A DNA stretch of 64,000 nt from positions 372,001 through 436,000 of the forward strand of contig FCOD02000001.1 of the NCBI GenBank assembly GCA_001544655.2. The letters run 5' to 3'. Position numbers and translations under genes: made by a program. The notes below the pieces were generated by a model that had not been told where the DNA came from, did not search any database, and saw nothing but the letters and a program-made list of their open reading frames with translations. Positions 43,785-60,800 of the stretch are shown here, piece by piece (positions within the stretch are counted from its first letter, which is position 1; the number at the start of each line of letters is the position of its first letter). This DNA is from Caballeronia turbans (lineage in GTDB: Bacteria; Pseudomonadota; Gammaproteobacteria; Burkholderiales; Burkholderiaceae).

Positions 43785-44498
43785 ATGAAAGTCCTGATAG
43801 TCGAAGACGAACACAAAGTGGTGGATTACCTGCGCTCGGGGTTGACCGAGCAAGGCTGGGTCGTCGATATCGCAATGGATGGCGAGGAAGGCACGCATCT
43901 CGCCATCGAATACGACTACGACGTGATCGTGCTCGACGTGATGCTGCCAAGACGCGACGGCTTCGCGGTATTGAAAGCGCTGCGACTGCAGAAATCGACG
44001 CCGGTCATCATGCTCACCGCGCGCGATCACATCAACGATCGCGTGCGCGGGTTGCGTGAAGGCGCGGACGACTATCTGACGAAGCCGTTCTCGTTCCTCG
44101 AGCTCGTCGAACGTTTGCATGCGCTCGCACGCCGCACGCGCGCGCAGGAATCGACGCTCATTTCCGTCGGCGATCTGTATGTCGATCTGATCGGCCGCCG
44201 TGCGACACGCGATGGCGTGCGGCTCGATCTCACCGCAAAGGAGTTCCAGTTGCTCTCCGTGCTCGCACGCCGCCACGGCGACATTCTCTCGAAGACCGCG
44301 ATCACCGAGCTCGTCTGGGAAGTCGATTTCGAAAGCCACACGAACGTCGTCGAGACGGCGATCAAGCGGCTGCGCGCGAAACTCGACGGACCGTTCCGCA
44401 CGAAACTGCTGCATACCGTGCGAGGCATGGGCTACGTGCTCGAAGTGCGCGAAGCCCGCGACACGCGCGAAACAAGGGAAGACGCGAGACCATCATGA
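43785..44498 (+). CDS. OmpR-family response regulator (CusR/CopR-like)
   Basis: This 237-residue protein has a complete receiver (KVLIVEDEHKVVDYL, acceptor in VIVLDVMLPRRDGF, TAR, LTKPFSFLEL) and a winged-helix output (LDLTAKEFQLLSVLARRHGD, VVETAIKRLRAKLD). It resembles heavy-metal-type regulators. It lies 95 bp after the efflux operon and overlaps the kinase gene by 4 bp (ATGA). It probably controls the pump. The ATG at 43785 is preferred over GTG 43776. Confidence 0.87.
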   Translation: MKVLIVEDEHKVVDYLRSGLTEQGWVVDIAMDGEEGTHLAIEYDYDVIVLDVMLPRRDGFAVLKALRLQKSTPVIMLTARDHINDRVRGLREGADDYLTKPFSFLELVERLHALARRTRAQESTLISVGDLYVDLIGRRATRDGVRLDLTAKEFQLLSVLARRHGDILSKTAITELVWEVDFESHTNVVETAIKRLRAKLDGPFRTKLLHTVRGMGYVLEVREARDTRETREDARPS

Positions 44499-49326: not shown

Positions 49327-52068
49327 TCAGACCGCGCTCAGACGCGCCATCTCTGTCTCGACGATGAGTTTCTTCAACTCCGGCACACACGACCCGCAGT
49401 TGCCGCCGGCCTTCACGCAGGACGTGATCTGCGCGGCGGTTTTCAGTCCCTTGTCGCGGATCGCGTTGCAGATGGTATTGCGTCCGACGCCGAAGCACGA
49501 GCACACGGTCGGCCCCGTGTCCTCGCCCTTGACCGAAGGCTGGCCGAGCAGGAGGCTCGCGCGGTCGTCGTCGTCGAGCCGGTCCTTCTCGAAGAGCGTC
49601 GCGAGCCATTCCCGCGCGGGCAGATCGGGCCGTTCGGAGATGAACACGCAGCTCTCGATGCGCTCATCCACCACATGCGCCGCGCGATACACGCCCGCGC
49701 TCTTGTCCTCGTATTCGATCCAGTCCGCGTGTCGATCGTCGATATGAAAGAGCGCACGCGCCCAGTCGTGATGATCGCCATGCGATGCATCGAAGCGATT
49801 GCGGCCCGCCATCTCGTAGCGCACGTGTCGCGCGCCGTGCACGCGCGTCCAGTGCGTGACCATGTCGAGATCGGGCGCGGTGCGCGAGAGCGAAAAGCCG
49901 TGCCACGTGACGTGAAATTTCTCGATCGCGACAGGCGTGTGCTTGAATTCAGGCTCGCCCGAAACAGGATCGACGACGGGATTGACCACCGCGCCGACGC
50001 GCGCGTCCGAGGCGACCTGATCGTTCCAGTGAATCGGCACGAACACGCTGCCGCGCGGCATGCCGCCGCCGTGTTGCACGCGCGCGATCATCGAACCCCA
50101 ACGGCTCGACACGCGCGCAAGCTCGCCTTCGCGCACGCCGCATGCGAGCGCGTCTTGCGGATGCATGTCGATGAACGATTCGCTGATGTGTCCCGCGAGC
50201 TTCGCGGATCGGCCGGTGCGCGTCATCGTGTGCCATTGATCGCGCACGCGGCCGGTGTTGAGCACGAGCGGATAGTCTTCGTCGGGCGCGTTGACGGGAT
50301 GGCGCGGCGGCGTCGGGACGAAGCGCGCGCAACCGTCCGCGTGACTGAAGCGCTGATCTTCGAAGAGCCTCGTAACGCTGCCTTCTTCCACGGAGCGCAG
50401 CGGCCATTGCGTCGGCTGCAAGGCGTCGTATTGCGCGCGATCGAGGCCCGTCAAACCGCCGATGTCGAACGCGCGATGCACGCCCGTCGCCGCATCGTTG
50501 CGATATGCCGAGAGCCGCGCGTGCTCGTCGAAAATCTCATGCGGCCCCGCGAAGTCGAAGCCGTCGAAGCCCATGCGACGCGCGACGTCGCACATGATTC
50601 GCCAGTCCGCGCGCGCCTCGCCCGGCGCCGGAATGAACGCGCGTTGACGCGAGATGCGCCGCTCCGAGTTCGTCACGGTGCCGTCTTTCTCGCCCCAGCC
50701 GAGCGCGGGCAGCAGCACATCGGCGAACGCGTTGGTATCCGTCTTCTCGACGATGTCCGAGCTCACCACGAGCTCGCACTGTTCGAGTGCCCGCTTCACG
50801 CGATCGCCGTCGGGCAGGCTCACGACAGGATTGGTGCCCATCACCCATACCGCTTTCACGCGGCCGGCTTCGATTGCATCGAACAATTCGACGGCCTTCA
50901 ATCCGGCGCGCTCCGCGATCACAGGCGAATTCCAGAACGTCTGCACGATCTCGCCATGCAGCGGATCGCCGAACTCGAGGTGCGCGGCAAGCGTATTCGC
51001 GAGGCCGCCGACTTCGCGGCCGCCCATCGCGTTGGGCTGGCCGGTGAAAGAAAACGGCCCCATGCCCGGCTTGCCGATACGTCCCGTCGCCAGATGACAG
51101 TTGATGATGCCATTGACTTTATCCGTCCCCGCGCTCGACTGATTCACGCCCTGCGAATAGACCGTCACCACACGTTCCGTGCATGCGAACAGCCGATAAA
51201 ACGTCATCAGGTCGTGTTGGTCGAGCTTGCAGTCCTTCGCCGTTTGCGCGAGATCGGAAGGTCCAGCCGCGGCGAGCGCGGCATCGAAGCCGCGGGTATG
51301 CGCATCGACGAAGGTCGCATCCGTCGCGCCATGTTCCGCGAGGAATGCGAGCAGGCCGTTGAAGAGCGGAACGTCGCTGCCGGGCTTGAGCGGCAGGTGC
51401 AGATCGGCCATTTCGCACGTTGCGGTATGGCGCGGATCGATCACGACGATCTTCATCTCCGGCCGTTTCTCCTTCATCTTCACGATGCGCTGAAAGAGAA
51501 TCGGATGGCACCATGCCGTGTTCGAGCCGACCAGCACGACGAGGTCCGCGAGTTCGAGGTCCTCGTAGTTCAGGGGCACGAGGTCTTCGCCGAATGCACG
51601 CTTGTGCCCCGCTACCGACGACGACATGCACAGCCGCGAATTCGTGTCGATGTTCGCGCTGCCGATATAGCCCTTCATCAGCTTGTTGGCGACGTAGTAA
51701 TCCTCGGTGAGCAACTGGCCCGATACATAGAACGCGACCGCATCCGGACCATGCTGTTCGATGATGCGCGCAAAGCCGCTCGCAACCGTGCCGAGCGCGT
51801 CGTCCCACGACACCTCGGAGAGCGATCCGGTATGCCGGCCGCGCAGCTTCGGGCTGAGCAGGCGCCCTTCGAGTCCGATCGTGTCGCCGAGCGCCGAGCC
51901 CTTCACGCACAGACGGCCGAAGTTCGACGGATGCGCTTCGTCGCCCGCGATCGTTACTTCGGTCGCGCTCTTCGGCGACGCCTCCACACCGCAGCCGACG
52001 CCGCAATACGGGCACGTGGTTTTGACGGAGGCCGATTGAATCGGGATGATGGGCTTGGTCACGCTCAA
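49327..52068 (-). CDS. nasA: Assimilatory nitrate reductase, catalytic subunit
   Basis: This 913-residue molybdopterin enzyme has an N-terminal [4Fe-4S] motif TCPYCGVGCGVE ... GRLCVKG and a bis-MGD oxidoreductase body (SRLCMSSSVAGHKRAFGED, TGQPNAMGGREVGG, WGEKDGTVTNSERR). A C-terminal BFD-like [2Fe-2S] segment follows (CSCFGVGRNTIC ... GGNCGSCVPELK). It reduces nitrate to nitrite in the cytoplasm. It is the last gene of the five-gene operon, 12 bp after the flavoprotein gene that probably supplies electrons. Confidence 0.92.
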   Translation of the reverse strand: MSVTKPIIPIQSASVKTTCPYCGVGCGVEASPKSATEVTIAGDEAHPSNFGRLCVKGSALGDTIGLEGRLLSPKLRGRHTGSLSEVSWDDALGTVASGFARIIEQHGPDAVAFYVSGQLLTEDYYVANKLMKGYIGSANIDTNSRLCMSSSVAGHKRAFGEDLVPLNYEDLELADLVVLVGSNTAWCHPILFQRIVKMKEKRPEMKIVVIDPRHTATCEMADLHLPLKPGSDVPLFNGLLAFLAEHGATDATFVDAHTRGFDAALAAAGPSDLAQTAKDCKLDQHDLMTFYRLFACTERVVTVYSQGVNQSSAGTDKVNGIINCHLATGRIGKPGMGPFSFTGQPNAMGGREVGGLANTLAAHLEFGDPLHGEIVQTFWNSPVIAERAGLKAVELFDAIEAGRVKAVWVMGTNPVVSLPDGDRVKRALEQCELVVSSDIVEKTDTNAFADVLLPALGWGEKDGTVTNSERRISRQRAFIPAPGEARADWRIMCDVARRMGFDGFDFAGPHEIFDEHARLSAYRNDAATGVHRAFDIGGLTGLDRAQYDALQPTQWPLRSVEEGSVTRLFEDQRFSHADGCARFVPTPPRHPVNAPDEDYPLVLNTGRVRDQWHTMTRTGRSAKLAGHISESFIDMHPQDALACGVREGELARVSSRWGSMIARVQHGGGMPRGSVFVPIHWNDQVASDARVGAVVNPVVDPVSGEPEFKHTPVAIEKFHVTWHGFSLSRTAPDLDMVTHWTRVHGARHVRYEMAGRNRFDASHGDHHDWARALFHIDDRHADWIEYEDKSAGVYRAAHVVDERIESCVFISERPDLPAREWLATLFEKDRLDDDDRASLLLGQPSVKGEDTGPTVCSCFGVGRNTICNAIRDKGLKTAAQITSCVKAGGNCGSCVPELKKLIVETEMARLSAV

Positions 52069-52080
52069 GGTCTCTCCTGC

Positions 52081-53352
52081 TTATGCTGATGCGCCCGCTT
52101 CGCAAAGGGTCTTGCCGAAGAGAAGCCTGCCGCGCAGATGCGATACGTCCGTGCGGTTCTGAATCAGATCGAAGTACCAGCCGCCGTCCTTCACGTCGCC
52201 ATACAGCACCGCGCCGATCAGACGTCCCGCGTTCAACACGAGACGCTTGTAGACGCCGCGCCGGGGATCGCGCAGCACGAGATCCTCGCTGTCGTCGCCG
52301 CCGATGAAATCGCCGGCCGAGTACAGATCGACGCCCGTCACCTTCAGCTTGGTCGCGGTCGCGCGCTGCACATAGCGGCGATGCCCCGCGCCCGCGAGAT
52401 GCGCGCCCGCCACGCGCGCCTGATCCCAGATCGGCGCGACGAGACCGAAGGTCGCCGAGCGATGCTGCACGCATTCGCCCACTGCGTACACGCGCGGGTC
52501 GAAAGTCTGCAGCGTGTCGTCCACGACGATCGCACGCTCGCAATGCAGTCCGGCCTCTTGCGCGAGCGCGATGTTGGGCCGCACGCCTGCCGTCATCACG
52601 ACGAGGTCCGCGTCGATCTGCGTGCCGTCCGCGAAACGCACGGCGCGCACGCGGCTTTCACCGATGATTTCGGTGGTCTGAGCGGCCATCACGAAGCGCA
52701 GGCCTTTTGCTTCGAGAGAACGCCTGAGCAACGCGGACGCGCTTGCATCGAGCTGACGATCCATCAGGCTTTCGCCCGCATGCACGACCGTCACGGTCAT
52801 GCCTCGCCGTTGCAAACCGTTCGCCGCTTCGAGCCCGAGCAAGCCGCCGCCGATGACCACCGCATGACGATGATCGCGCGCCGCATCCAGCATCGTTTCG
52901 ACATCGTGTATGTCACGAAACGCGATCACGCCGGGAAGATCGCATCCGGGCACCGGAATGATGAAAGGCTTCGATCCGGTCGCAATCAGCAAGCGGTCGT
53001 AACGCGCCTCGACGCCCTTCTGCGAACGCACGATGCGCCGCGCCCGATCGATGCCGATGACCGCATCGCCCGCATGCAGCGTGATGCCGTTCGCGTCGTA
53101 CCACTCGCGCGTGTTGAGGATGATGTCATCGACAGTCTTTTCGCCCGCGAGCATCGGCGACAACAGAATGCGGTTGTAATTGCCGTACGGCTCGGCGCCG
53201 AACACGGTGATGTCGTACAGCCCGGGCGCGATCTTCAGCAGTTCCTCGACCGTGCGCATGCCCGCCATGCCGTTGCCGATGACGACGAGCCGCTGGCGCG
53301 ACGCGGTATCGCGCAACGACGCCATGCCCGCAACCGCATATTCGGTCTTCAT
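52081..53352 (-). CDS. NAD(P)H/FAD oxidoreductase, electron donor of the nitrate reductase (probable)
   Basis: This 423-residue protein resembles the FAD/NAD half of NirB: VVIGNGMAGMRTVEEL, YNRILLSPMLAGEKTVDDI, VVIGGGLLGLEAANGLQRRG and VYAVGECVQHRS. It lacks siroheme and BFD domains. Its start makes an ATGA overlap with nirD. Its position between nirD and nasA suggests the NADH-dependent flavoprotein partner (NasB/NasC-like) of NasA. This role is inferred. Confidence 0.84.
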   Translation of the reverse strand: MKTEYAVAGMASLRDTASRQRLVVIGNGMAGMRTVEELLKIAPGLYDITVFGAEPYGNYNRILLSPMLAGEKTVDDIILNTREWYDANGITLHAGDAVIGIDRARRIVRSQKGVEARYDRLLIATGSKPFIIPVPGCDLPGVIAFRDIHDVETMLDAARDHRHAVVIGGGLLGLEAANGLQRRGMTVTVVHAGESLMDRQLDASASALLRRSLEAKGLRFVMAAQTTEIIGESRVRAVRFADGTQIDADLVVMTAGVRPNIALAQEAGLHCERAIVVDDTLQTFDPRVYAVGECVQHRSATFGLVAPIWDQARVAGAHLAGAGHRRYVQRATATKLKVTGVDLYSAGDFIGGDDSEDLVLRDPRRGVYKRLVLNAGRLIGAVLYGDVKDGGWYFDLIQNRTDVSHLRGRLLFGKTLCEAGASA

Positions 53353-53693
53353 GCCGCGACCCACACCTTGCCGCCCGCGACCTTCACGCGATACGCGCTG
53401 ACCGATAGCTCCGGCGCTTCGAGGCATTCGCCGGTGCGCAGATCGAAGTGCTGCTTGTAGATCGGCGATGCGACGACGATGCGCTCGCCCAGACTCCCCA
53501 CGATGCCCCGCGACAGCACCGCGGCTTGCGAATGCGGATCGTAGTTGTCGATCGCGTAGACGGCCGCGTCCTCGCCCGCGAGATGGAACACCGCGACCTG
53601 CGTGCCCTTCACGAGCGCGCAGACGCCGGTATCCGGCACGATGTCGTCGAGTTCACACACGGCGGTCCAGTCCTGTTCGATACGGTCGTTCAT
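53349..53693 (-). CDS. nirD: Nitrite reductase small subunit
   Basis: This 114-residue Rieske-fold protein of the NirD type has WTAVCELDDIVPDTGVCALV, VYAIDNYDPHSQAAVLSRGI and a C-terminal HFDLRTGECLE. The Cys/His cluster ligands of true Rieske proteins are absent, as is normal for NirD. The start at 53693 has TGGAG at a good distance; an ATG 6 bases earlier is too close to it. Confidence 0.9.
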   Translation of the reverse strand: MNDRIEQDWTAVCELDDIVPDTGVCALVKGTQVAVFHLAGEDAAVYAIDNYDPHSQAAVLSRGIVGSLGERIVVASPIYKQHFDLRTGECLEAPELSVSAYRVKVAGGKVWVAA

Positions 53694-53710
53694 GATCATT
53701 TCTCCAGGGT

Positions 53711-56251
53711 TCAGGCGGTTTCGACTACGACAGCAATGTCAGCGAGCTTCGACTTGCGCTCTTCGAGCGTCGCGGGGCGAATCTGGCCGCGCTCTTCCAC
53801 GAAGGTCACGTTCGCATCGCCCTGTTCGCTGTTGACGAAGTGACGGAAGCGCTTACGTGTATGCGGGTCCGTGACGGCCTTCTTCCACTCGTCCTCGTAC
53901 GTATCGACGACGAGTTGCATCTCCGCTTCGAGTTCGGCGGCGATGGACAGCTTGTCGTTGATGACCACGTCGATCAGATAATCGAGGCCGCCTTCGAGGT
54001 TGTCGCGCCACACGCTCGTGCGCTGCAGGCGATCGGCCGTGCGCACGTAGAACATCAGGAGGCGGTCGATATAGCGTACGAGCGTGTCGTGATCGAGATC
54101 GGACGCAATGAGTTCGGCGTGGCGCGGCTTCATGCCGCCGTTGCCACAGACGTAGAGGTTCCAGCCCTTTTCCGTCGCGATGACGCCGACGTCCTTGCCT
54201 TGCGCCTCGGCGCATTCGCGCGTGCAGCCCGATACGCCGAACTTGATCTTGTGCGGCGTGCGCAGGCCCTTGTACCGGTTCTCCAGTTCGATCGCGAGAC
54301 CGACCGAATCGCCGACGCCATAGCGGCACCACGTCGAGCCGACGCACGACTTCACCGTGCGCAGCGCCTTGCCATAGGCATGACCCGATTCGAAGCCCGC
54401 CGCGATCAGCTCTTCCCAGATGAACGGCAACTGCTCGACACGCGCGCCGAACATGTCCACACGCTGGCCGCCGGTGATCTTCGTATAAAGGCCGTACTTC
54501 TTCGCGACCTGCCCGACCGCGATCAGGCCATCGGGCGTCACTTCGCCGCCCGGCATGCGGGGCACGACGCTATACGTGCCGTCGCGTTGAATATTCGCGA
54601 GGTAGTAATCGTTCGAGTCCTGCAGGCTCGCGTGCTCCTTCTTCAGCACGAACTCGTTCCAGCACGATGCGAGAATGCTCGCGACCGCCGGCTTGCAGAT
54701 ATCGCAGCCGCGCCCCTTGCCATGTTTCGCGAGCAGCGCGCCGAACGTGCGATGCCCTTCCACGCGCGCGATGTGATACAGCTCCTGACGCGAATACGGA
54801 AAGTGCTCGCAGAGATGATTGTTCACCGCGAGACCTTGCCGCTTCATCTCCGACTTCATTACCTGCGTGACGAGCGGCACGCAGCCGCCGCACGACGCGC
54901 CCGCCTTGCACGACGACTTGATCGCGCCGATGCTCGTCGCGCCGGCGCAGACCGCCGCGCAGATTTCCGCCTTGCTCACGTTGTTGCATGAACAGATCTG
55001 CGCGCCATCGGGCAATGCTTCGACGCCGAGCGCGGGCTTCGCCTTACCATCGCTTTGCGGGAGGATCAGGAACTCGGGCGCTTCGGGCAGCTCGATCTTG
55101 TTCAGCATCATCTGCAGGAGCGTGCCGTATTCGGCCGCATCGCCGACCATCACGCCGCCCAGAAGAAACTTGCCGCATTCGGACACGACGATCTTCTTGT
55201 AGACCTGCTTGCGCTCGTCGCTGTACTGATACGTGCGGCAGCCGGCCGTCTTGCCGTGCGCATCGCCGATGCTCGCCACATCCACGCCCATCAGCTTGAG
55301 CTTCGTGCTCATGTCCGCGCCCGCGAACGCCGCGTCCTCGCCGATGATCTGCTTCGCGACGATGCGCGCCATGTCGTACCCGGGCGCGACGAGGCCGAAC
55401 AACTGGCCTTTCCACAACGCGCATTCGCCGATGGCGAAGATATCGGCATCGCTCGTGCGGCAGGTGTCGTCGATCACGATGCCGCCACGCGGGCCGATCG
55501 TGAGACCCGCGGCGCGGGCGATGTCGTCACGCGGACGAATGCCCGCGGAGAACACGATCATGTCGGTGTCGAGATGCGTGTCATCGGCGAAATTCATGCG
55601 GTTCACCGCGCCTGCGCCATCGACGATCGCGAGCGTGTTCTTGCCCGTATGCACCGTGACGCCGAGCTCCTCGATCTTCGCGCGCAATACGCGACCGCCG
55701 CCATCGTCGACTTGCACCGCCATCAAACGCGGCGCGAACTCGATCACGTGCGTTTCGAGCCCCATGTCGCGCAGCGCCTTCGCTGCTTCGAGACCGAGCA
55801 GGCCGCCGCCGACCACCGTGCCCGTCTTCGAGCGCGCGCCGAACGACTGCATCGCTTCGAGGTCCTCGATCGTGCGATACACGAAGCAGCCGTCGCGGTC
55901 CTTGCCCTCGACCGGCGGCACGAACGGGTATGAGCCGGTCGCGAGCACGAGCTTGTCGTACGGCAGCACTTCGCCGGTCGAAGCCGTGACCGTGCGCGCC
56001 GCGCGATCGATGGCGACCGCGCGCGCGTTCAATTTCAGCGCATAGCCCGAACGCTCGAAAAAGCCCGCTTCGACGAGCGACAGATCAGCCGCGCTCCTGC
56101 CCGAGAAAAATTCGGTCAGATGCACGCGGTCATACGCGGCGCGCGGCTCTTCGCACAGCACCGTCACGTGCAGCGCGTCATTGCCGCTATCGGCGAGACA
56201 TTCGAGGAACTTGTGGCCGACCATGCCGTGGCCGATGACGACGATTTTCAT
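53711..56251 (-). CDS. nirB: Assimilatory NADH nitrite reductase large subunit
   Basis: This 846-residue protein has the usual NirB length. In order it has FAD and NAD domains (VVIGHGMVGHKFLE; GGGLLGLEAA), a BFD-like [2Fe-2S] segment (CSCNNVSKAEIC ... ASCGGC), a second similar segment (RGCDICKP) and the siroheme/[4Fe-4S] region with CVGSTWC and GVSGCTREC. It reduces nitrite to ammonium. The siroheme need is met by cobA, divergent from this operon. It starts 11 bp after the transporter gene. Confidence 0.93.
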   Translation of the reverse strand: MKIVVIGHGMVGHKFLECLADSGNDALHVTVLCEEPRAAYDRVHLTEFFSGRSAADLSLVEAGFFERSGYALKLNARAVAIDRAARTVTASTGEVLPYDKLVLATGSYPFVPPVEGKDRDGCFVYRTIEDLEAMQSFGARSKTGTVVGGGLLGLEAAKALRDMGLETHVIEFAPRLMAVQVDDGGGRVLRAKIEELGVTVHTGKNTLAIVDGAGAVNRMNFADDTHLDTDMIVFSAGIRPRDDIARAAGLTIGPRGGIVIDDTCRTSDADIFAIGECALWKGQLFGLVAPGYDMARIVAKQIIGEDAAFAGADMSTKLKLMGVDVASIGDAHGKTAGCRTYQYSDERKQVYKKIVVSECGKFLLGGVMVGDAAEYGTLLQMMLNKIELPEAPEFLILPQSDGKAKPALGVEALPDGAQICSCNNVSKAEICAAVCAGATSIGAIKSSCKAGASCGGCVPLVTQVMKSEMKRQGLAVNNHLCEHFPYSRQELYHIARVEGHRTFGALLAKHGKGRGCDICKPAVASILASCWNEFVLKKEHASLQDSNDYYLANIQRDGTYSVVPRMPGGEVTPDGLIAVGQVAKKYGLYTKITGGQRVDMFGARVEQLPFIWEELIAAGFESGHAYGKALRTVKSCVGSTWCRYGVGDSVGLAIELENRYKGLRTPHKIKFGVSGCTRECAEAQGKDVGVIATEKGWNLYVCGNGGMKPRHAELIASDLDHDTLVRYIDRLLMFYVRTADRLQRTSVWRDNLEGGLDYLIDVVINDKLSIAAELEAEMQLVVDTYEDEWKKAVTDPHTRKRFRHFVNSEQGDANVTFVEERGQIRPATLEERKSKLADIAVVVETA

Positions 56252-56262
56252 GACGGGCCCTC

Positions 56263-57588
56263 TCAGTTGGCAATGACGTTGTTGGCTGCGAGGGCGCTTT
56301 CGCGCAGTGCCGCTTCGCGTGCCTTGTGTTCGGGAGAGAAACGCACCGCGAGCGCGCACAACGCCGTGCCCGCGACGACCACGCCGAGCATCGAGAGCGT
56401 CGCCTGCGCGTTGCCGAGCCCCTTCATCAGGAAGCCCGCCGCGACGGCGCCGACGTTACCGCCCGCGCCGATGACGCCGGCCACGCCGCCGAGTGCCTTT
56501 CGGTCGATGAAGGGCACGAGCGCGTAAGTCGCACCGCACGCCATGTGCGTGAAGAGACCGAACGCGAGCATCGAAACGACCGCGAGCACGACGCTCGGCG
56601 CATGCGCGAATGCATAGAGACCGAGGCCTTCGCCCGCGATCAATGCGAAGAGCAGCGTCGCGCGGATATCGAGGCCTTTCTTTGCTGCGGCTTTATCGGA
56701 GAGCCAGCCGCCGAGCGCGCGGGCGAAGAGCGCGAGCAGGCCGAAGCTGCCCGCCGCCATGCCCGCCTGACCGAGCGTGAGATTGAAGCGATCGACGTAA
56801 TACACCGCCGCCATGTTGTGGATGAACACTTCCACGCCGAAGCACGCACCATAGGTCACGAACAACATCCACACGCGATAGTTCGAGCAGGCGGCGAGGA
56901 AGCTCTGCCAGCCGCCCTTCTTGCCGCCGTCGATGGCGATGCCCGCACGGCGCAGCGTCGCGAAATCGCCTTGCGGACAGTCCTGCGTGTAGCGCCAGTA
57001 GAAGAAGGCCATCACCGGCATCGCGATGCCCGGCACGATCAGCGCGACGCGCCATGCCGATGCTTCACCCGTACCGAGCGCGATAGCGGCCGCGACGAAG
57101 AGCGGAATGACCGCCTGTGCCGCGCCCGCACCCGCATTGCCCCAGCCTGCCGTGGTCGCGTTCGCGGTGCCGACGACGTTCGGCGCGAACATCACCGACG
57201 TGTGGTACTGCGTGATGACGAAGCTCGCGCCGATTGCGCCGATCGCAAGACGGCACCACAGGAAGCTGTCGTAGCCCGTGGACAGCGCCGCGCCGAGCAC
57301 CGGCACCGCACCCGCGAGCAGCAGCGCGCTATACACCTTGCGCGGCCCGAAGCGATCGCACATCGGCCCGACGACGAGGCGCACCAGAATCGTCACGGCC
57401 ACGGCCGCGATGTTGATGTTCGCGACCTGATCCGCCGTGAGGCCGTACTCGCGCTTGATGAGCGGCATCAGCGGCGCGCAGGCGAACCACGCGAAAAAGC
57501 ACACGAAGAAGGCCATCCACGTGAGATGGAAGGCGCGCATCGGCGCGCTGCGCATGCTGAAGAGATCGATCCGGGTGGCTTTGTCCAT
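56263..57588 (-). CDS. Nitrate/nitrite transporter (NarK/NasA type MFS)
   Basis: This 441-residue 12-helix protein has the nitrate-signature glycine-rich helices AGWGNAGAGAAQAV (helix 5) and GAGGNVGAVAAGF (helix 11) and RLVVGPMCDRFGPRKVY. It imports nitrate. The start at 57588 follows GCGGAAAGACG. It is the first gene of the nitrate operon and is preceded immediately by the leader terminator at 57600-57652, so its transcription should depend on read-through. Confidence 0.9.
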   Translation of the reverse strand: MDKATRIDLFSMRSAPMRAFHLTWMAFFVCFFAWFACAPLMPLIKREYGLTADQVANINIAAVAVTILVRLVVGPMCDRFGPRKVYSALLLAGAVPVLGAALSTGYDSFLWCRLAIGAIGASFVITQYHTSVMFAPNVVGTANATTAGWGNAGAGAAQAVIPLFVAAAIALGTGEASAWRVALIVPGIAMPVMAFFYWRYTQDCPQGDFATLRRAGIAIDGGKKGGWQSFLAACSNYRVWMLFVTYGACFGVEVFIHNMAAVYYVDRFNLTLGQAGMAAGSFGLLALFARALGGWLSDKAAAKKGLDIRATLLFALIAGEGLGLYAFAHAPSVVLAVVSMLAFGLFTHMACGATYALVPFIDRKALGGVAGVIGAGGNVGAVAAGFLMKGLGNAQATLSMLGVVVAGTALCALAVRFSPEHKAREAALRESALAANNVIAN

Positions 57589-57599
57589 CGTCTTTCCGC

Positions 57600-57652
57600 A
57601 AAAAAAGAAAGGCGTCCCGCGCATCGACCGGGAAGCCGATGCGGGGGACGCC
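57600..57652 (-). terminator. Leader terminator (attenuator) of the nitrate operon
   Basis: On the minus strand an 8-bp stem (GGCGTCCC/GGGACGCC), one C-C mismatch, a 7-bp stem (CGCATCG/CGATGCG) and a 10-base loop are followed by TTTCTTTTTTT. This is a strong intrinsic terminator only 12 bp before the transporter start codon, in front of all five genes. Its 5' arm overlaps the second ANTAR-type hairpin, so the two structures exclude each other. Confidence 0.9.
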
Positions 57653-57719
57653 GTTGTCCGATGCCCGCACGTTCTTCACCTGTCGGGCGCTGTATTCAGG
57701 ACGGATCGCCGTTGATCCG
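57646..57719 (-). promoter_or_regulatory. ANTAR-type two-hexaloop antiterminator RNA, nitrate operon
   Basis: In the minus-strand transcript, hairpin 1 (57719-57702) is CGGATC, loop AACGGC, GATCCG. Hairpin 2 (57659-57646) is GGAC, loop AACGGC, GTCC. Both loops have six bases with A first and G fourth, the mark of RNA sites bound by ANTAR proteins such as NasR, NasT and EutV. The linker is 42 bases. The 3' arm of hairpin 2 is part of the terminator's 5' arm, giving the mutually exclusive antiterminator/terminator arrangement. Confidence 0.85.
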
Positions 57720-57733
57720 ATGGCAAGACATAA

Positions 57734-57749
57734 GGCAAGGGCTATGCCA
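57734..57749 (-). promoter_or_regulatory. Sigma-54 promoter of the nitrate operon
   Basis: TGGCATAGCCCTTGCC on the minus strand matches the -24/-12 consensus TGGCAC-N5-TTGCA at all but two positions with exact spacing. It predicts a start near 57723, so hairpin 1 of the leader begins at about +5. Confidence 0.8.
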
Positions 57750-57849
57750 TGCGCGACGCATCGGCCGAAGAGGCTTGCTGCATACGGCTTTGCGCAACGC
57801 ATGCACTGCCGGGGCGCACGCGCTTCACGGCGCGTTTCGATGCAGGCGG

Positions 57850-57864
57850 GCACAGCGATGGTGC
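57850..57864. promoter_or_regulatory. Candidate NtrC-binding site 1
   Basis: GCACAGCGATGGTGC has the GCAC-N7-GTGC symmetry of NtrC boxes. It lies about 130 bp upstream of the predicted nitrate-operon start, a normal enhancer distance. Confidence 0.6.
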
Positions 57865-57870
57865 GACGCA

Positions 57871-58048: not shown

Positions 58049-58064
58049 TGGCCCGCTTATTGCA
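58049..58064 (+). promoter_or_regulatory. Sigma-54 promoter of cobA-nasT-nasS
   Basis: TGGCCCGCTTATTGCA matches TGGCAC-N5-TTGCA with one mismatch and exact spacing. It predicts a start near 58075 and a 5' leader of about 155 bases before cobA. Confidence 0.78.
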
Positions 58065-58078
58065 TCGAGAAAACCACT

Positions 58079-58133
58079 GCGGGCAACGGCGCTCGCGGCA
58101 TCTCGAAGCAAAAGAGCAAGGACAAAGGCGTCC
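58079..58133 (+). promoter_or_regulatory. Second ANTAR-type two-hexaloop RNA, cobA leader
   Basis: Hairpin 1 (58079-58096) is GCGGGC, loop AACGGC, GCTCGC (one G-U pair). Hairpin 2 (58120-58133) is GGAC, loop AAAGGC, GTCC. Both hexaloops have A first and G fourth; loop 1 and the GGAC/GTCC stem are identical to those in the nitrate-operon leader. Hairpin 1 again begins at predicted +5. The linker is 23 bases. Confidence 0.75.
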
Positions 58134-58160
58134 CCATCGTGCAGCGACACGAGCGGACGC
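58128..58160 (+). terminator. Terminator-like stem overlapping the cobA antiterminator
   Basis: GCGTCC (58128-58133) pairs with GGACGC (58155-58160) around an inner stem TCGTG/CACGA (58137-58152). The 5' arm shares GTCC with hairpin 2. Only a poor T-tract (TATTGGCGTTT) follows, so intrinsic termination is less certain than in the nitrate operon. Confidence 0.5.
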
Positions 58161-58230
58161 TATTGGCGTTTGCCGCGCCGATGCGCCCCACATACGCACA
58201 TACGCACGTACGCAGAACAGGTAAGCAACG

Positions 58231-58998
58231 ATGAGCACCATCCAAGGCAAAGTCACTCTGTTAAGCGCAGGTCCCGGCGATCTCGACCTGCTGACCCTGC
58301 GCGCCGCGAAGGCGCTCGCCGCCGCCGACATCCTGCTCGTCGACGATCTGGCCAACGCGGACATCGTCACGCTCGCGCCGCATGCGCGCGTGATTCGCGT
58401 CGGCAAGCGCGGCGGCTGCAAGTCGACGCCGCAAGCGTTCATTCAGCGCCTCATGCAGCGCTATGCGAGGAAGGGATTGCATGTGGTGCGCGTGAAGGGC
58501 GGCGACGCTTTGCTCTTCGGCCGCGCCGGCGAGGAGATCGCGGCGCTGCGTGAAGCGCATATTCCGGTCGATATCGTCAACGGTGTGTCGTCGGGCTTCG
58601 CGGCGGCGGCGGGACTCGGCATCTCGCTCACGCATCGCGATCATTGCCAGGGCGTGACCTTCGTCACCGCGCACATGCAGGATCACAGTCAGCCGGATTG
58701 GGCCGCCCTCGCCGCCACCGGCACCACACTCGCGATCTATATGGGCATGAGCCGCATCGCGAGCATCACGGCATCGTTGATGGAAGCGCTTCCTTCGAAT
58801 ACGCCCGCGGCCGTCGTGCAGAACGCGGGATCGTCGAAGGAAAGGCGTCTCGTCACGACGCTCGGCCGTCTCGCAGAAGAAGTCTCGGCGGCCGGTCTCG
58901 GCAGTCCCGCGGTGATCCTCATCGGCGGTGCGATTGGAGAAGCGGCTGAATTCACGACGCACGCCGCGAGCGCGAACGGCCTGGCCCATGCAGCCTGA
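58231..58998 (+). CDS. cobA: Uroporphyrinogen-III C-methyltransferase
   Basis: This 255-residue single-domain SUMT has LLSAGPGDLDLLTLRAAKAL (11-30), VRVKGGDALLFGRAGEE near 86 and the SAM-site LTHRDHCQGVTFVTAH. It makes precorrin-2, the first committed step to siroheme, which the nitrite reductase NirB requires. The dehydrogenase/chelatase half of CysG is absent. It is divergent from the nitrate operon and first in a plus-strand run with nasT (63-bp gap) and nasS. Confidence 0.9.
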   Translation: MSTIQGKVTLLSAGPGDLDLLTLRAAKALAAADILLVDDLANADIVTLAPHARVIRVGKRGGCKSTPQAFIQRLMQRYARKGLHVVRVKGGDALLFGRAGEEIAALREAHIPVDIVNGVSSGFAAAAGLGISLTHRDHCQGVTFVTAHMQDHSQPDWAALAATGTTLAIYMGMSRIASITASLMEALPSNTPAAVVQNAGSSKERRLVTTLGRLAEEVSAAGLGSPAVILIGGAIGEAAEFTTHAASANGLAHAA

Positions 58999-59061: not shown

Positions 59062-59655
59062 ATGACCTCCTCCGCGTCCCGCATGCTTCGCGTTCTTCTC
59101 GTCACCGACACCGACAAGCCCATCGGCGATTTGCGCGAGCAACTCGCCCGCATGGGCTATGACATGCTCGCCGAAGTCGCCGCGCCGTCGGCCTTGCACA
59201 AGGCCGTCGAGAGTCAGAAGCCCGATGTCGTCATCATCGACACCGAATCGCCCTCGCGCGATACGCTCGAACAGCTCGCCGTGATGAACAAGGCCGCGCC
59301 GCGCCCCGTGCTGATGTTCAGCAACGACGCGGACCAGCAATTCATTCGTGCGGCGGTCGGCGCGGGCGTCACCGCGTATTCCGTCGAAGGGCTCGCGCCC
59401 GCGCGGCTCGCACCGATCATCGACGTCGCACTCGCGCGCTTCGCGCATGAAGCGCAATTGCGCCAGCGTCTCGCCAAAGTCGAGGATGAACTGGAGCAGC
59501 GCAAGGTCATCGACCGCGCGAAACGTCTGTTGATGGACAAGCGCGGCATGTCCGAACACGATGCCTATGCGGCACTTCGCAAGCGCGCGATGGATCAGGG
59601 CGTGAAGGTCGCGGAGATCGCGCGTCAACTGCTCGCGCTGTCCGACCTGTTCTAG
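59062..59655 (+). CDS. nasT: ANTAR-domain antiterminator NasT
   Basis: This 197-residue protein has a receiver-like N-terminus and a C-terminal three-helix ANTAR RNA-binding domain (about 140-193: LEQRKVIDRAKRLLMDKRGM, AYAALRKRAMDQGVKVAEIA). The receiver keeps D60 but has Glu in place of the conserved Lys region (AYSVEGL), in line with control by NasS binding rather than phosphorylation. It should bind the two hexaloop leaders at 57646-57719 and 58079-58133. A start at the ATG at 59083 is possible. Confidence 0.9.
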   Translation: MTSSASRMLRVLLVTDTDKPIGDLREQLARMGYDMLAEVAAPSALHKAVESQKPDVVIIDTESPSRDTLEQLAVMNKAAPRPVLMFSNDADQQFIRAAVGAGVTAYSVEGLAPARLAPIIDVALARFAHEAQLRQRLAKVEDELEQRKVIDRAKRLLMDKRGMSEHDAYAALRKRAMDQGVKVAEIARQLLALSDLF

Positions 59656-59669
59656 CGCCACCGACACCT

Positions 59670-60800
59670 ATGAACTCCCCCGACACGACTTCTCCCGCGC
59701 CCGAACGCACGCATCTGCGGCTCGGCTTCGTCGCCCTTTCCGATGCCGCGCCGCTCGCCGTCGCGGCATTGCGCGAACTCGGCGCGCGGCACGGCATCAA
59801 GATCGAGTTGTGCCGTCAGCCTTCGTGGGCCGCCGTGCGCGACAAGCTGCTATCCGGCGAAATCGACGCCGCACATGCGCTCTATGGACTCGTGTACGGC
59901 GTGCAACTGGGCATCGGCGGGCCGCGGGCGGACATGGCGGTGCTGATGGTCCTCAACCGCAACGGCCAGGCGATCACGCTGTCGCGTCCGCTCGCCGATG
60001 CGATCGAGCACGGCGCGAGCGTGAAGGACGCGCTGGCCTCGCTCGGGCGGCGGCCCGTCATCGCGCAGACGTTTCCGACCGGCACGCACGCGATGTGGCT
60101 TTACTACTGGCTCGCGGCGCACGGCGTGCATCCCTTGCGCGATGTCCAGAGCGTCGTGATTCCGCCGCCGCGCATGGCCGATGCGCTCGTCGAAGGCGCG
60201 CTCGACGGCTTCTGTGCGGGTGAGCCGTGGCACGCGGTGGCCGAGGCGCGCAATGCGGGCAAAACGGTCGCGTACACGAGCGAGATCTGGCCGGATCATC
60301 CGGAGAAGGTGCTCGCCTGCCGGCGCGATTTCGCGGCGCTCTACCCGGCGACGGCGCGCGCGCTCGTGCGCACGATGCTCGACGCCTGCGCATGGCTCGA
60401 TTCGAGCGACCATCGTAAGGAGATCGCGCAGGCGCTGGCGTCGGCTGAACTGCTCGGCGTGCCGCGCGCGCTGATCGAGCCGCGCCTCGTCGCCACGGAC
60501 GGCGGCGAGGCGCGCGCGCTGCCGGTGCGATTCTTCGATGGCGGCGCGGTCAACTATCCGCGCGTATCGGACGGGCTGTGGTTCATCACGCAGTATCGGC
60601 GCTGGGGCATGCTCGATGCCGATATCGACGACGCAGCCGTCGCGGCGAGCGTCAATCAGACCGCGCTTTATCGCGACGCGGCGCGGGCGTCGGGGATTGC
60701 GCTGCCCGAGGAGCGGCGCGCGGCCACCCTCTGCGATCGCCGGGTTTGGGACGGCGGCGACGCGGCGGGGTATCTCGCGGGGTTCGAAATGCGCGCGTGA
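59670..60800 (+). CDS. nasS: Cytoplasmic nitrate sensor NasS
   Basis: This 376-residue protein of the NrtA/CmpA nitrate-binding family lacks any signal peptide (starts MNSPDTTSPAPERTHLRLGF), which separates NasS from the periplasmic transport proteins. Family features include AHALYGLVYGVQLGIGGP, FPTGTHAMWLYYWLAAHG and DGFCAGEPW. In known systems NasS holds NasT inactive and releases it when nitrate binds. It is 14 bp after nasT. Confidence 0.9.
   Translation: MNSPDTTSPAPERTHLRLGFVALSDAAPLAVAALRELGARHGIKIELCRQPSWAAVRDKLLSGEIDAAHALYGLVYGVQLGIGGPRADMAVLMVLNRNGQAITLSRPLADAIEHGASVKDALASLGRRPVIAQTFPTGTHAMWLYYWLAAHGVHPLRDVQSVVIPPPRMADALVEGALDGFCAGEPWHAVAEARNAGKTVAYTSEIWPDHPEKVLACRRDFAALYPATARALVRTMLDACAWLDSSDHRKEIAQALASAELLGVPRALIEPRLVATDGGEARALPVRFFDGGAVNYPRVSDGLWFITQYRRWGMLDADIDDAAVAASVNQTALYRDAARASGIALPEERRAATLCDRRVWDGGDAAGYLAGFEMRA

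Follow-up and report, generated by a model that had tools for sequence, protein, structure and literature searches.

A candidate NasT-responsive antitermination leader at the nitrate assimilation locus of Caballeronia turbans, and a second leader ahead of cobA-nasT-nasS

The leader ahead of the nitrate/nitrite assimilation genes of Caballeronia turbans (leader 1) is very probably an ANTAR antitermination leader controlled by the NasS/NasT pair. We base this reading of a 64,000-nucleotide stretch of the genome (the window, whose first letter is position 1) on the anatomy and conservation of the leader, its covariation score, the co-occurrence of such leaders with NasT or NasR, and the RNA-contact residues kept in NasT; from these features, we infer promoter use, RNA binding, nitrate control and autoregulation. 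ANTAR proteins such as NasR, NasT and EutV bind paired hexaloop hairpins with A1 and G4 and prevent termination. An initial annotation of the window had claimed a leader read by NasT and made nitrate-dependent by NasS, and the evidence just named, together with the loop letters, supports that claim, with binding as a prediction. Absent from the annotation were a second leader (leader 2), which precedes cobA, nasT and nasS, and an NtrC-like site shared by the two.

The leaders lie in a divergent region between two sets of genes. Behind leader 1, all on the minus strand, follow a narK-family nitrate/nitrite MFS transporter gene (56263..57588; TIGR00886 at 289.4 bits against a cut-off of 311.7, PF07690 over cut-off), nirB for the nitrite reductase large subunit (53711..56251; TIGR02374 over cut-off), nirD for the small subunit (53349..53699; TIGR02378 over cut-off), a gene for a NirB-like FAD/NAD reductase (52081..53427; domain and family profiles) and a nasC-like gene for the catalytic subunit of assimilatory nitrate reductase (49327..52068; Pfam domains over cut-off, NF047855 at 453.9 bits and below cut-off). 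On the plus strand lie a cobA-type uroporphyrinogen-III C-methyltransferase gene for siroheme (58231..58998; TIGR01469 and NF004790 over cut-off), nasT, encoding a response regulator with an ANTAR domain (59062..59655; PF00072 and PF03861 over cut-off), and nasS, encoding an NrtA-like nitrate sensor (59670..60800; PF13379 over cut-off; best solved match NrtA, 2g29). A REC-ANTAR protein beside an NrtA-like sensor marks a NasS/NasT pair, and this is the arrangement found here; NasT is 99% identical to the NasT of Caballeronia sp. INDeC2.

Leader 1 can be read almost letter by letter. The initial annotation had described, with no strand given, a sigma-54-type promoter, an AACGGC-loop hairpin at predicted +5 and a second hairpin with the same hexaloop; all three are present on the minus strand, at 57749-57735, 57719-57702 and 57659-57646. 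The -24/-12 promoter TGGCATAGCCCTTGC (57735..57749; GG-N10-GC, read directly) carries TGGC and TTGC letters that are invariant across 35 aligned leaders, themselves selected by that pattern. It predicts a +1 at about 57723, so that hairpin 1 (P1), CGGATC[AACGGC]GATCCG at 57702..57719, begins at +5; this hairpin emerges from direct reading, a hairpin scan and covariation. A 42-nt linker with a possible extra stem-loop (57660..57701) leads to hairpin 2 (P2), GGAC[AACGGC]GTCC (57646..57659), which overlaps an intrinsic terminator with a U tract (57600..57652, stem 57652-57611), identified by folding and by the covariation score of its upper stem. The first base of the terminator's 5' arm, GGCGTCCC, is loop position 4 of hairpin 2. 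Leader 1 accordingly has two six-base-loop hairpins with A1 and G4, the second of them overlapping the 5' arm of an intrinsic terminator. In the minimum-energy fold, the stem consists of 8 bp, a 1x1 mismatch and 10 bp, and it is followed by TTTCTTTTTTT, which reaches 57600. The annotation was thus right about a strong terminator with a T-run whose 5' arm overlaps hairpin 2, just before the first start codon, and is corrected in two measures: the stem is 8+10 rather than 8+7, and 11 nt rather than 12 separate the terminator end from the narK ATG at 57588. A generic scan for terminators missed this one, the mismatch inside its stem being the probable reason. The 146-nt transcript folds more stably than all 200 of 200 dinucleotide shuffles (z -4.1). 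An RNA that ends ahead of the terminator's 3' arm forms hairpin 2 in its centroid fold, though not in its minimum-energy fold, and is no more stable than shuffles (z -0.2).

Do the stems covary among relatives, as the initial annotation had proposed to check? We aligned 35 leaders of the first kind (19 of which went into covariance model R1) and 22 of the second, all collected by hairpin pattern; the joint alignment of both was model-fitted, and a MAFFT version, which put hairpin 1 wrongly, was left unused. In leader 1, the antiterminator hairpins are paired in 99.7% of cells across 34 distinct sequences. Covariation scores can rise among related sequences without structure, and it is with this in mind that the values should be read: 0.151 for the leader 1 hairpins against 0.107 shuffled (reached by none of 500 shuffles), 0.210 against 0.144 for the upper stem of its terminator, 0.245 against 0.166 for the leader 2 hairpins, and 0.377 against 0.115 for both leaders jointly in the model-fitted alignment, the last three each above all 500 shuffles. 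In all four sets, the score also exceeds that of every slid version. The joint set, again as model-fitted, holds 90 cells changed on both sides against 27.9. In the compensatory-change check, hairpin 1 and the terminator exceed the controls by score; most of the simple counts do not exceed shuffles. The number of pairs changed on both sides was reached by 269 of 500 shuffles for the leader 1 hairpins, 482 for its terminator, 358 for the leader 2 hairpins and 464 for the joint set; for further pair types, the corresponding figures are 269, 422, 408 and 23. Since these pair-count controls do not rise above shuffles, we lowered our confidence in the ANTAR-leader explanation by a very small step. 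Hairpin 2 shows no variation in leader 1 and hardly any in leader 2, and hence gives no covariation evidence. In the 22 leader 2 sequences, hairpin 1 persists, with paired changes in places, and hairpin 2 has hardly altered; the terminator-like stem is paired in 242 of 242 cells and varies little (48 of 500 shuffles).

The loops themselves are more telling than the stems of hairpin 2. Among 125 leaders, A1, A2 and G4 of the hairpin 2 loop are invariant (125/125), while each of the four bases occurs at position 3. In the hairpin 1 region, the best hexaloop hairpin, chosen without regard to its letters, shows A1 and G4 in 108 of the 125. Both counts were made on matches to a model that itself prefers loops of this type. 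The table of 125 excludes 20 of the 72 matches of one search, which were duplicates, already listed or outside the compared group. Loop positions 1 and 2 of hairpin 2 lie outside the terminator stem. This bears on the proposal that no ANTAR protein reads leader 1, which would instead act as a simple attenuator or give rise to a P11-like small RNA. Rfam P11 (RF00625), an annotated Pseudomonas small RNA, does match leader 1 at 27.2 bits and leader 2 at 24.9, both far below its gathering threshold of 70, yet an attenuator or small RNA of this sort would be expected neither to keep A1 and A2 outside the terminator nor to be associated with NasT or NasR, and we consider it highly improbable. Reportedly, P11 was described as the nirBD leader by Romeo in 2012.

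Which protein would read the hairpins, if they are ANTAR targets as we propose? In an HMMER alignment, NasT keeps all eight RNA-contact residues of EutV as given in the accessible text of PMC8934654, one of them conservatively as Lys->Arg. EutV Arg142, Lys143, Lys149, Glu160, Tyr164, Arg168 and Met172 (numbering in the aligned chain runs two ahead of that used in the paper) correspond to NasT Arg147, Lys148, Lys154, Glu165, Tyr169, Arg173 and Met177, and EutV Lys147 to Arg152. The genome encodes two ANTAR proteins, NasT and an AmiR, the latter in an AmiC-AmiR pair elsewhere in the genome (G000:C28; L002 1078-1728, plus strand). The presence of this pair would allow AmiR, in place of NasT, to read the leaders or to compete for them; about 0.9 kb separates leader 2 from nasT, however, NasT presence tracks the leader across genomes, and NasR, another nitrate sensor, occurs in four of the nine leader genomes without NasT, all of which makes a role for AmiR scarcely credible.

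The tracking of leader and NasT was measured in 300 Burkholderiales genomes: 67 have a leader, 119 have NasT (E <=1e-15) and 58 have both. NasT is found in 58/67 leader genomes against 61/233 others (odds ratio 18, Fisher p 3e-19, with kinship ignored), and in 51 of the 58 genomes with both, a leader lies at most 10 kb from nasT. Conversely, 61 of the 119 genomes encode a NasT-like protein without a leader match, the filters of the leader search being the stricter. Nine leader genomes lack NasT; four of them have a NIT-ANTAR protein (NasR-type) and one has another receiver-ANTAR protein. The remaining four combine weak leader scores (21.4-24.6 bits) with the absence of any ANTAR match at E 0.001. 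At loci L199, L200, L201 and L202, the same kind of RNA element is paired with a NasR-type nitrate sensor. Within the sampled class, 15 of 369 genomes, this one included, have a leader match at E 0.001.

Both leaders stand out against their surroundings. The window holds only two pairs of AA[AC]G[AG]C-loop hairpins (stems >=4), both in this region; a single further AACGGC-loop hairpin, at 44089 on the minus strand with 5 bp in its stem, is probably due to chance. The covariance-model scan suggested in the initial annotation found both leaders and nothing else above noise: in the 7.35-Mb genome, model R2 reports two sites at 90.8 and 62.1 bits, the next being at 16.2. Because R2 was built from 66 rows that include both leaders, these scores are not independent; only the emptiness elsewhere is. 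Rfam narK RNA (RF03032) matches leader 2 at 37.1 bits and leader 1 at 21.9, both below its gathering threshold of 43.2. Its consensus contains a sigma-54-like GGCAC-N5-UUGCU, an AACGGC hairpin and the stretch CGAC[AAAGAC]GUCG, which from its letters could be a second hexaloop hairpin and which the Rfam structure line does not mark as paired. The RF00625 consensus in turn contains GGACAAAGGCGUCC within a terminator-like stem. This suggests that narK RNA and P11 are this same element of sigma-54 promoter plus ANTAR leader. We rejected a third candidate leader at G000:C72 (narK RNA, 26.7 bits): it lies antisense over the start of a FAD-enzyme-like open frame and is absent from the R2 list even at E up to 5.

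Leader 2 occupies 58049-58169 on the plus strand, ahead of cobA (58231), nasT (59062) and nasS (59670). Alignment delimits a sigma-54 promoter, TGGCCCGCTTATTGC (58049..58063), with a predicted +1 at about 58075; alignment and hairpin scan then give hairpin 1, CTGCGGGC[AACGGC]GCTCGCGG (58077..58098), and hairpin 2, GGAC[AAAGGC]GTCC (58120..58133). A terminator-like hairpin with a poor U tract follows (58128..58169, with the hairpin itself at 58128-58160). R1, built from leader 1 only, matches leader 2 at 24.8 bits (E 0.001, 81 sources searched). This match is independent evidence for placing the two leaders in one class of element. Among 80 loci fetched with NasT, leader 2 was found in 36 and leader 1 in 35; these searches ran R2 over the window and 39 of the loci, and R1 over the window and all 80. 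A scan of the 250 bp upstream of nasT found no TGGC-N7/8-TTGC in 36 of 37 Caballeronia-type loci, the exception being L025. With no sigma-54 site directly before nasT in these 36, expression of nasTS in Caballeronia-type loci most likely depends on leader 2, as judged from a sequence scan that covered sigma-54-like promoters only. Since leader 2 precedes cobA-nasT-nasS, NasT may antiterminate its own operon through it.

The two promoters appear to share an activator site. Between them lies a dyad, GGCACAGCGATGGTGCG (57849..57865), that resembles an NtrC site; its GCAC-N6-GGTGC core is 100 bp away from one -24 box and 184 bp away from the other. The fit to the NtrC consensus is incomplete, with only 9-11 of 13 positions matching, and when regions are taken singly, as many as 37% of shuffles fit equally well. 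Across regions, the signal is clearer: 48 of 55 divergent regions have the core at 80-105 bp from a -24 box, against 0.25% of shuffles with any core of this kind. Among the remaining seven regions, the core lies elsewhere in one and is missing in the scanned orientation from six, the best match in five of these being the reverse complement of the core. The genome encodes one ntrC and two rpoN over NCBIfam cut-offs, the latter at G000:C48 and G000:C53.

A different account of leader 2 has to be weighed: that it is a relic or serves as a promoter only, with cobA-nasT-nasS transcribed from the sigma-54/NtrC promoter and a terminator too weak to matter. The window's own tail, TATTGGCGT, fits this account, as does a hairpin of -16.3 kcal/mol against -34.2 in leader 1. 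In all 36 loci that have both leaders, with nasTS following leader 2, the leader 2 hairpin is less stable than that of leader 1, and in 35 of them leader 2 also has the lower-scoring U tract; among the 17 loci with cobA alone after leader 2, its hairpin is the weaker in 16 and its U tract the lower in 8. These pairs come from related species and are not independent trials, exclude L016 and L024, in which no arm was found, and compare the most stable arm, with one artefact (L161, -39.0). Individual losses point the same way. Caballeronia glathei (L025, 3866-4000) has lost leader 2 and cobA, with a sigma-54-like site surviving 134 bp upstream of nasT; in C. catudaia (L016, 3106-3187), hairpin 2 is damaged; the pattern recognised no terminator arm in L016 or L024; and a script search found no 4-bp hairpin 1 with A1/G4 in L014 and L015. 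Against decay stand the retention of hairpins 1 and 2 in the 22 aligned leaders, the complete pairing of the terminator-like stem and the better tails of other Caballeronia, TTTTTTCGT in L017 and GTTTTTTGT in L027. On balance, we find a relic rather unlikely. A leaky leader 2 terminator would let an autoregulatory loop start, and a decaying element would look alike. Two further observations concern single loci: in C. catudaia L016, narK lies outside the locus, about 12 kb away on the contig, and downstream of nasS in L027 (6189-6298, plus strand) there is a match to the Burkholderia sRNA Bp1_684 at 32.4 bits, below its gathering threshold of 44.

The wiring of nasTS varies across the family. 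The order leader 2-cobA-nasT-nasS is found in 36 Caballeronia-type loci, which are labelled Caballeronia or Burkholderia and include Burkholderia sp. lig30, and in G285 from another genus of the family; in L099, nasT and nasS follow cobA. A second group of 35 loci (34 Paraburkholderia and one Rudaea MAG) has nasTS without an adjoining cobA, and in 28 of these a sigma-54-like site lies 27-194 bp before nasT, commonly at about 50. R1 yields eight weak matches in Paraburkholderia-type loci (12.5-19.3 bits, most reaching barely beyond the promoter) and none higher. Degenerate ANTAR-like leaders stand directly before nasT-nasS at L173 (1148-1243, minus strand) and L184 (around 2080, minus strand) in one genome of the Paraburkholderia group. 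In two of the seven loci of this group that lack such a site, P. saeva and P. sartisoli, and in two Trinickia loci, nasTS ends a gene line begun at a sigma-54 site and a leader match (27.5-44.6 bits), which runs through an MFS transporter, a reductase, nasC, cobA in Trinickia, nasT and nasS. Three Pandoraea regions have a similar line with nasTS last and the reductase first; together, these nasTS-last regions are L221-L225, L182 and L183. In 18 table rows, a leader precedes cobA alone, divergent from the nirB leader; nasTS is on another contig in four of these genomes, and no nasT lies within the 2 kb fetched in the other fourteen.

How does this compare with known systems? NasT-dependent leaders are said to precede nirBD-PA1779-cobA in Pseudomonas aeruginosa and nasAB in Azotobacter vinelandii. 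With these and the Paracoccus system, the present locus has in common a NasS/NasT pair, leader hairpins and control of nitrate/nitrite assimilation; unlike all three, it has two leaders back to back around one NtrC-like site. The Klebsiella NasR/nasF leader shares the nitrate-responsive ANTAR antitermination proposed here, but there one protein both senses and binds RNA, whereas here NasS and NasT would split the work. According to the accessible parts of the papers, NasT of Paracoccus denitrificans binds the nasA leader RNA and nitrate dissociates NasS-NasT (PMC3795266), and a chromosomal hairpin I mutant loses growth on nitrate (PMC3795266, PMC5424462). Paracoccus nasTS forms a separate NtrC-dependent unit, and the accessible text of PMC5424462 mentions no NasT leader before it, whereas here leader 2 precedes cobA-nasT-nasS. 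In the literature searched, where most subscription papers and all supplements were out of reach, we found no earlier report of a NasT leader before nasTS. For Bradyrhizobium, the accessible text of PMC6759348 predicts a NasT-type hairpin before narK and describes increased narK in a nasT mutant during denitrifying growth, and what is accessible of a 2025 survey predicts sigma-54 promoters before the NasT gene group (PMC12316311).

The linkers depart from the best-studied relative. Accessible portions of PMC3369931 define ANTAR target RNAs with a variable linker and already name Burkholderia among the matches surveyed. The EutV-controlled eut leaders of Enterococcus faecalis share two A1/G4 hexaloop hairpins, the second overlapping an intrinsic terminator (PMC3369931, PMC8934654, both as accessible); the sensor is a kinase there and a nitrate-binding protein here. 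In these same texts, eut P1-P2 linkers measure 5-12 nt, a 14-nt linker sharply cut induction (PMC3369931) and 20 added nucleotides abolished antitermination in vitro (PMC8934654). Here, the linker has 42 nt in leader 1 and 21-23 nt in leader 2 (21 with the full 8-bp stem formed), outside EutV-type spacing, and relatives span 33-68 nt for leader 1 (63 of 64 rows) and 22-73 nt for the nasTS-type leader 2 (35 of 37), with the stem counted to at most 6 pairs. Leader 1 linkers are mildly structured (median z against shuffles -1.33, 23 of 60 below -1.64), and those of nasTS-type leader 2 show no excess structure (median -0.27, 4 of 34 below -1.64); neither supports a conserved bridging hairpin in the linker.

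Taken as a working model, the parts would operate as follows. Under nitrogen shortage, transcription would begin at about 57723 with sigma-54 RNA polymerase, whose activator is probably NtrC bound at 57849-57865. In the absence of nitrate, NasS would hold NasT, the terminator would form on the nascent RNA, and transcription would stop before narK. With nitrate or nitrite present, NasS would release NasT, which would then stabilise the A1/G4 hexaloop hairpins; because hairpin 2 and the 5' arm of the terminator overlap, the stabilised hairpin would bar the terminator and allow narK, nirB, nirD, the reductase and nasC to be made. Through leader 2, with the same parts in weaker form, NasT would probably raise its own synthesis along with that of the siroheme enzyme CobA. 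More tentatively, we propose that NasT in Caballeronia sits inside its own antitermination loop with the leader 2 terminator kept leaky as a starter, that the family holds both wired and unwired versions of nasTS, and that long linkers are tolerated, a combination that we regard as possible rather than probable.

Finally, we would like to consider what these leaders mean. With this locus, nitrate-responsive ANTAR control gains a probable example, down to its coordinates, in a genus of soil and plant-associated bacteria. The type of switch is already known; the added interest lies in the second leader, the likely nasTS feedback and the linker lengths. If leaders spaced so widely do respond to NasT, with P1-P2 linkers that exceed several-fold what EutV tolerates, NasT would need to bind its target in a different geometry; being long and variable, the linkers make the published EutV spacing rule directly testable. 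The family also offers natural comparisons between nasTS behind its own leader, nasTS ending a leader-controlled operon and nasTS behind a bare promoter. If our reading holds, leader 2 would turn simple induction into a feedback loop, giving positive feedback on nitrate induction and perhaps memory.
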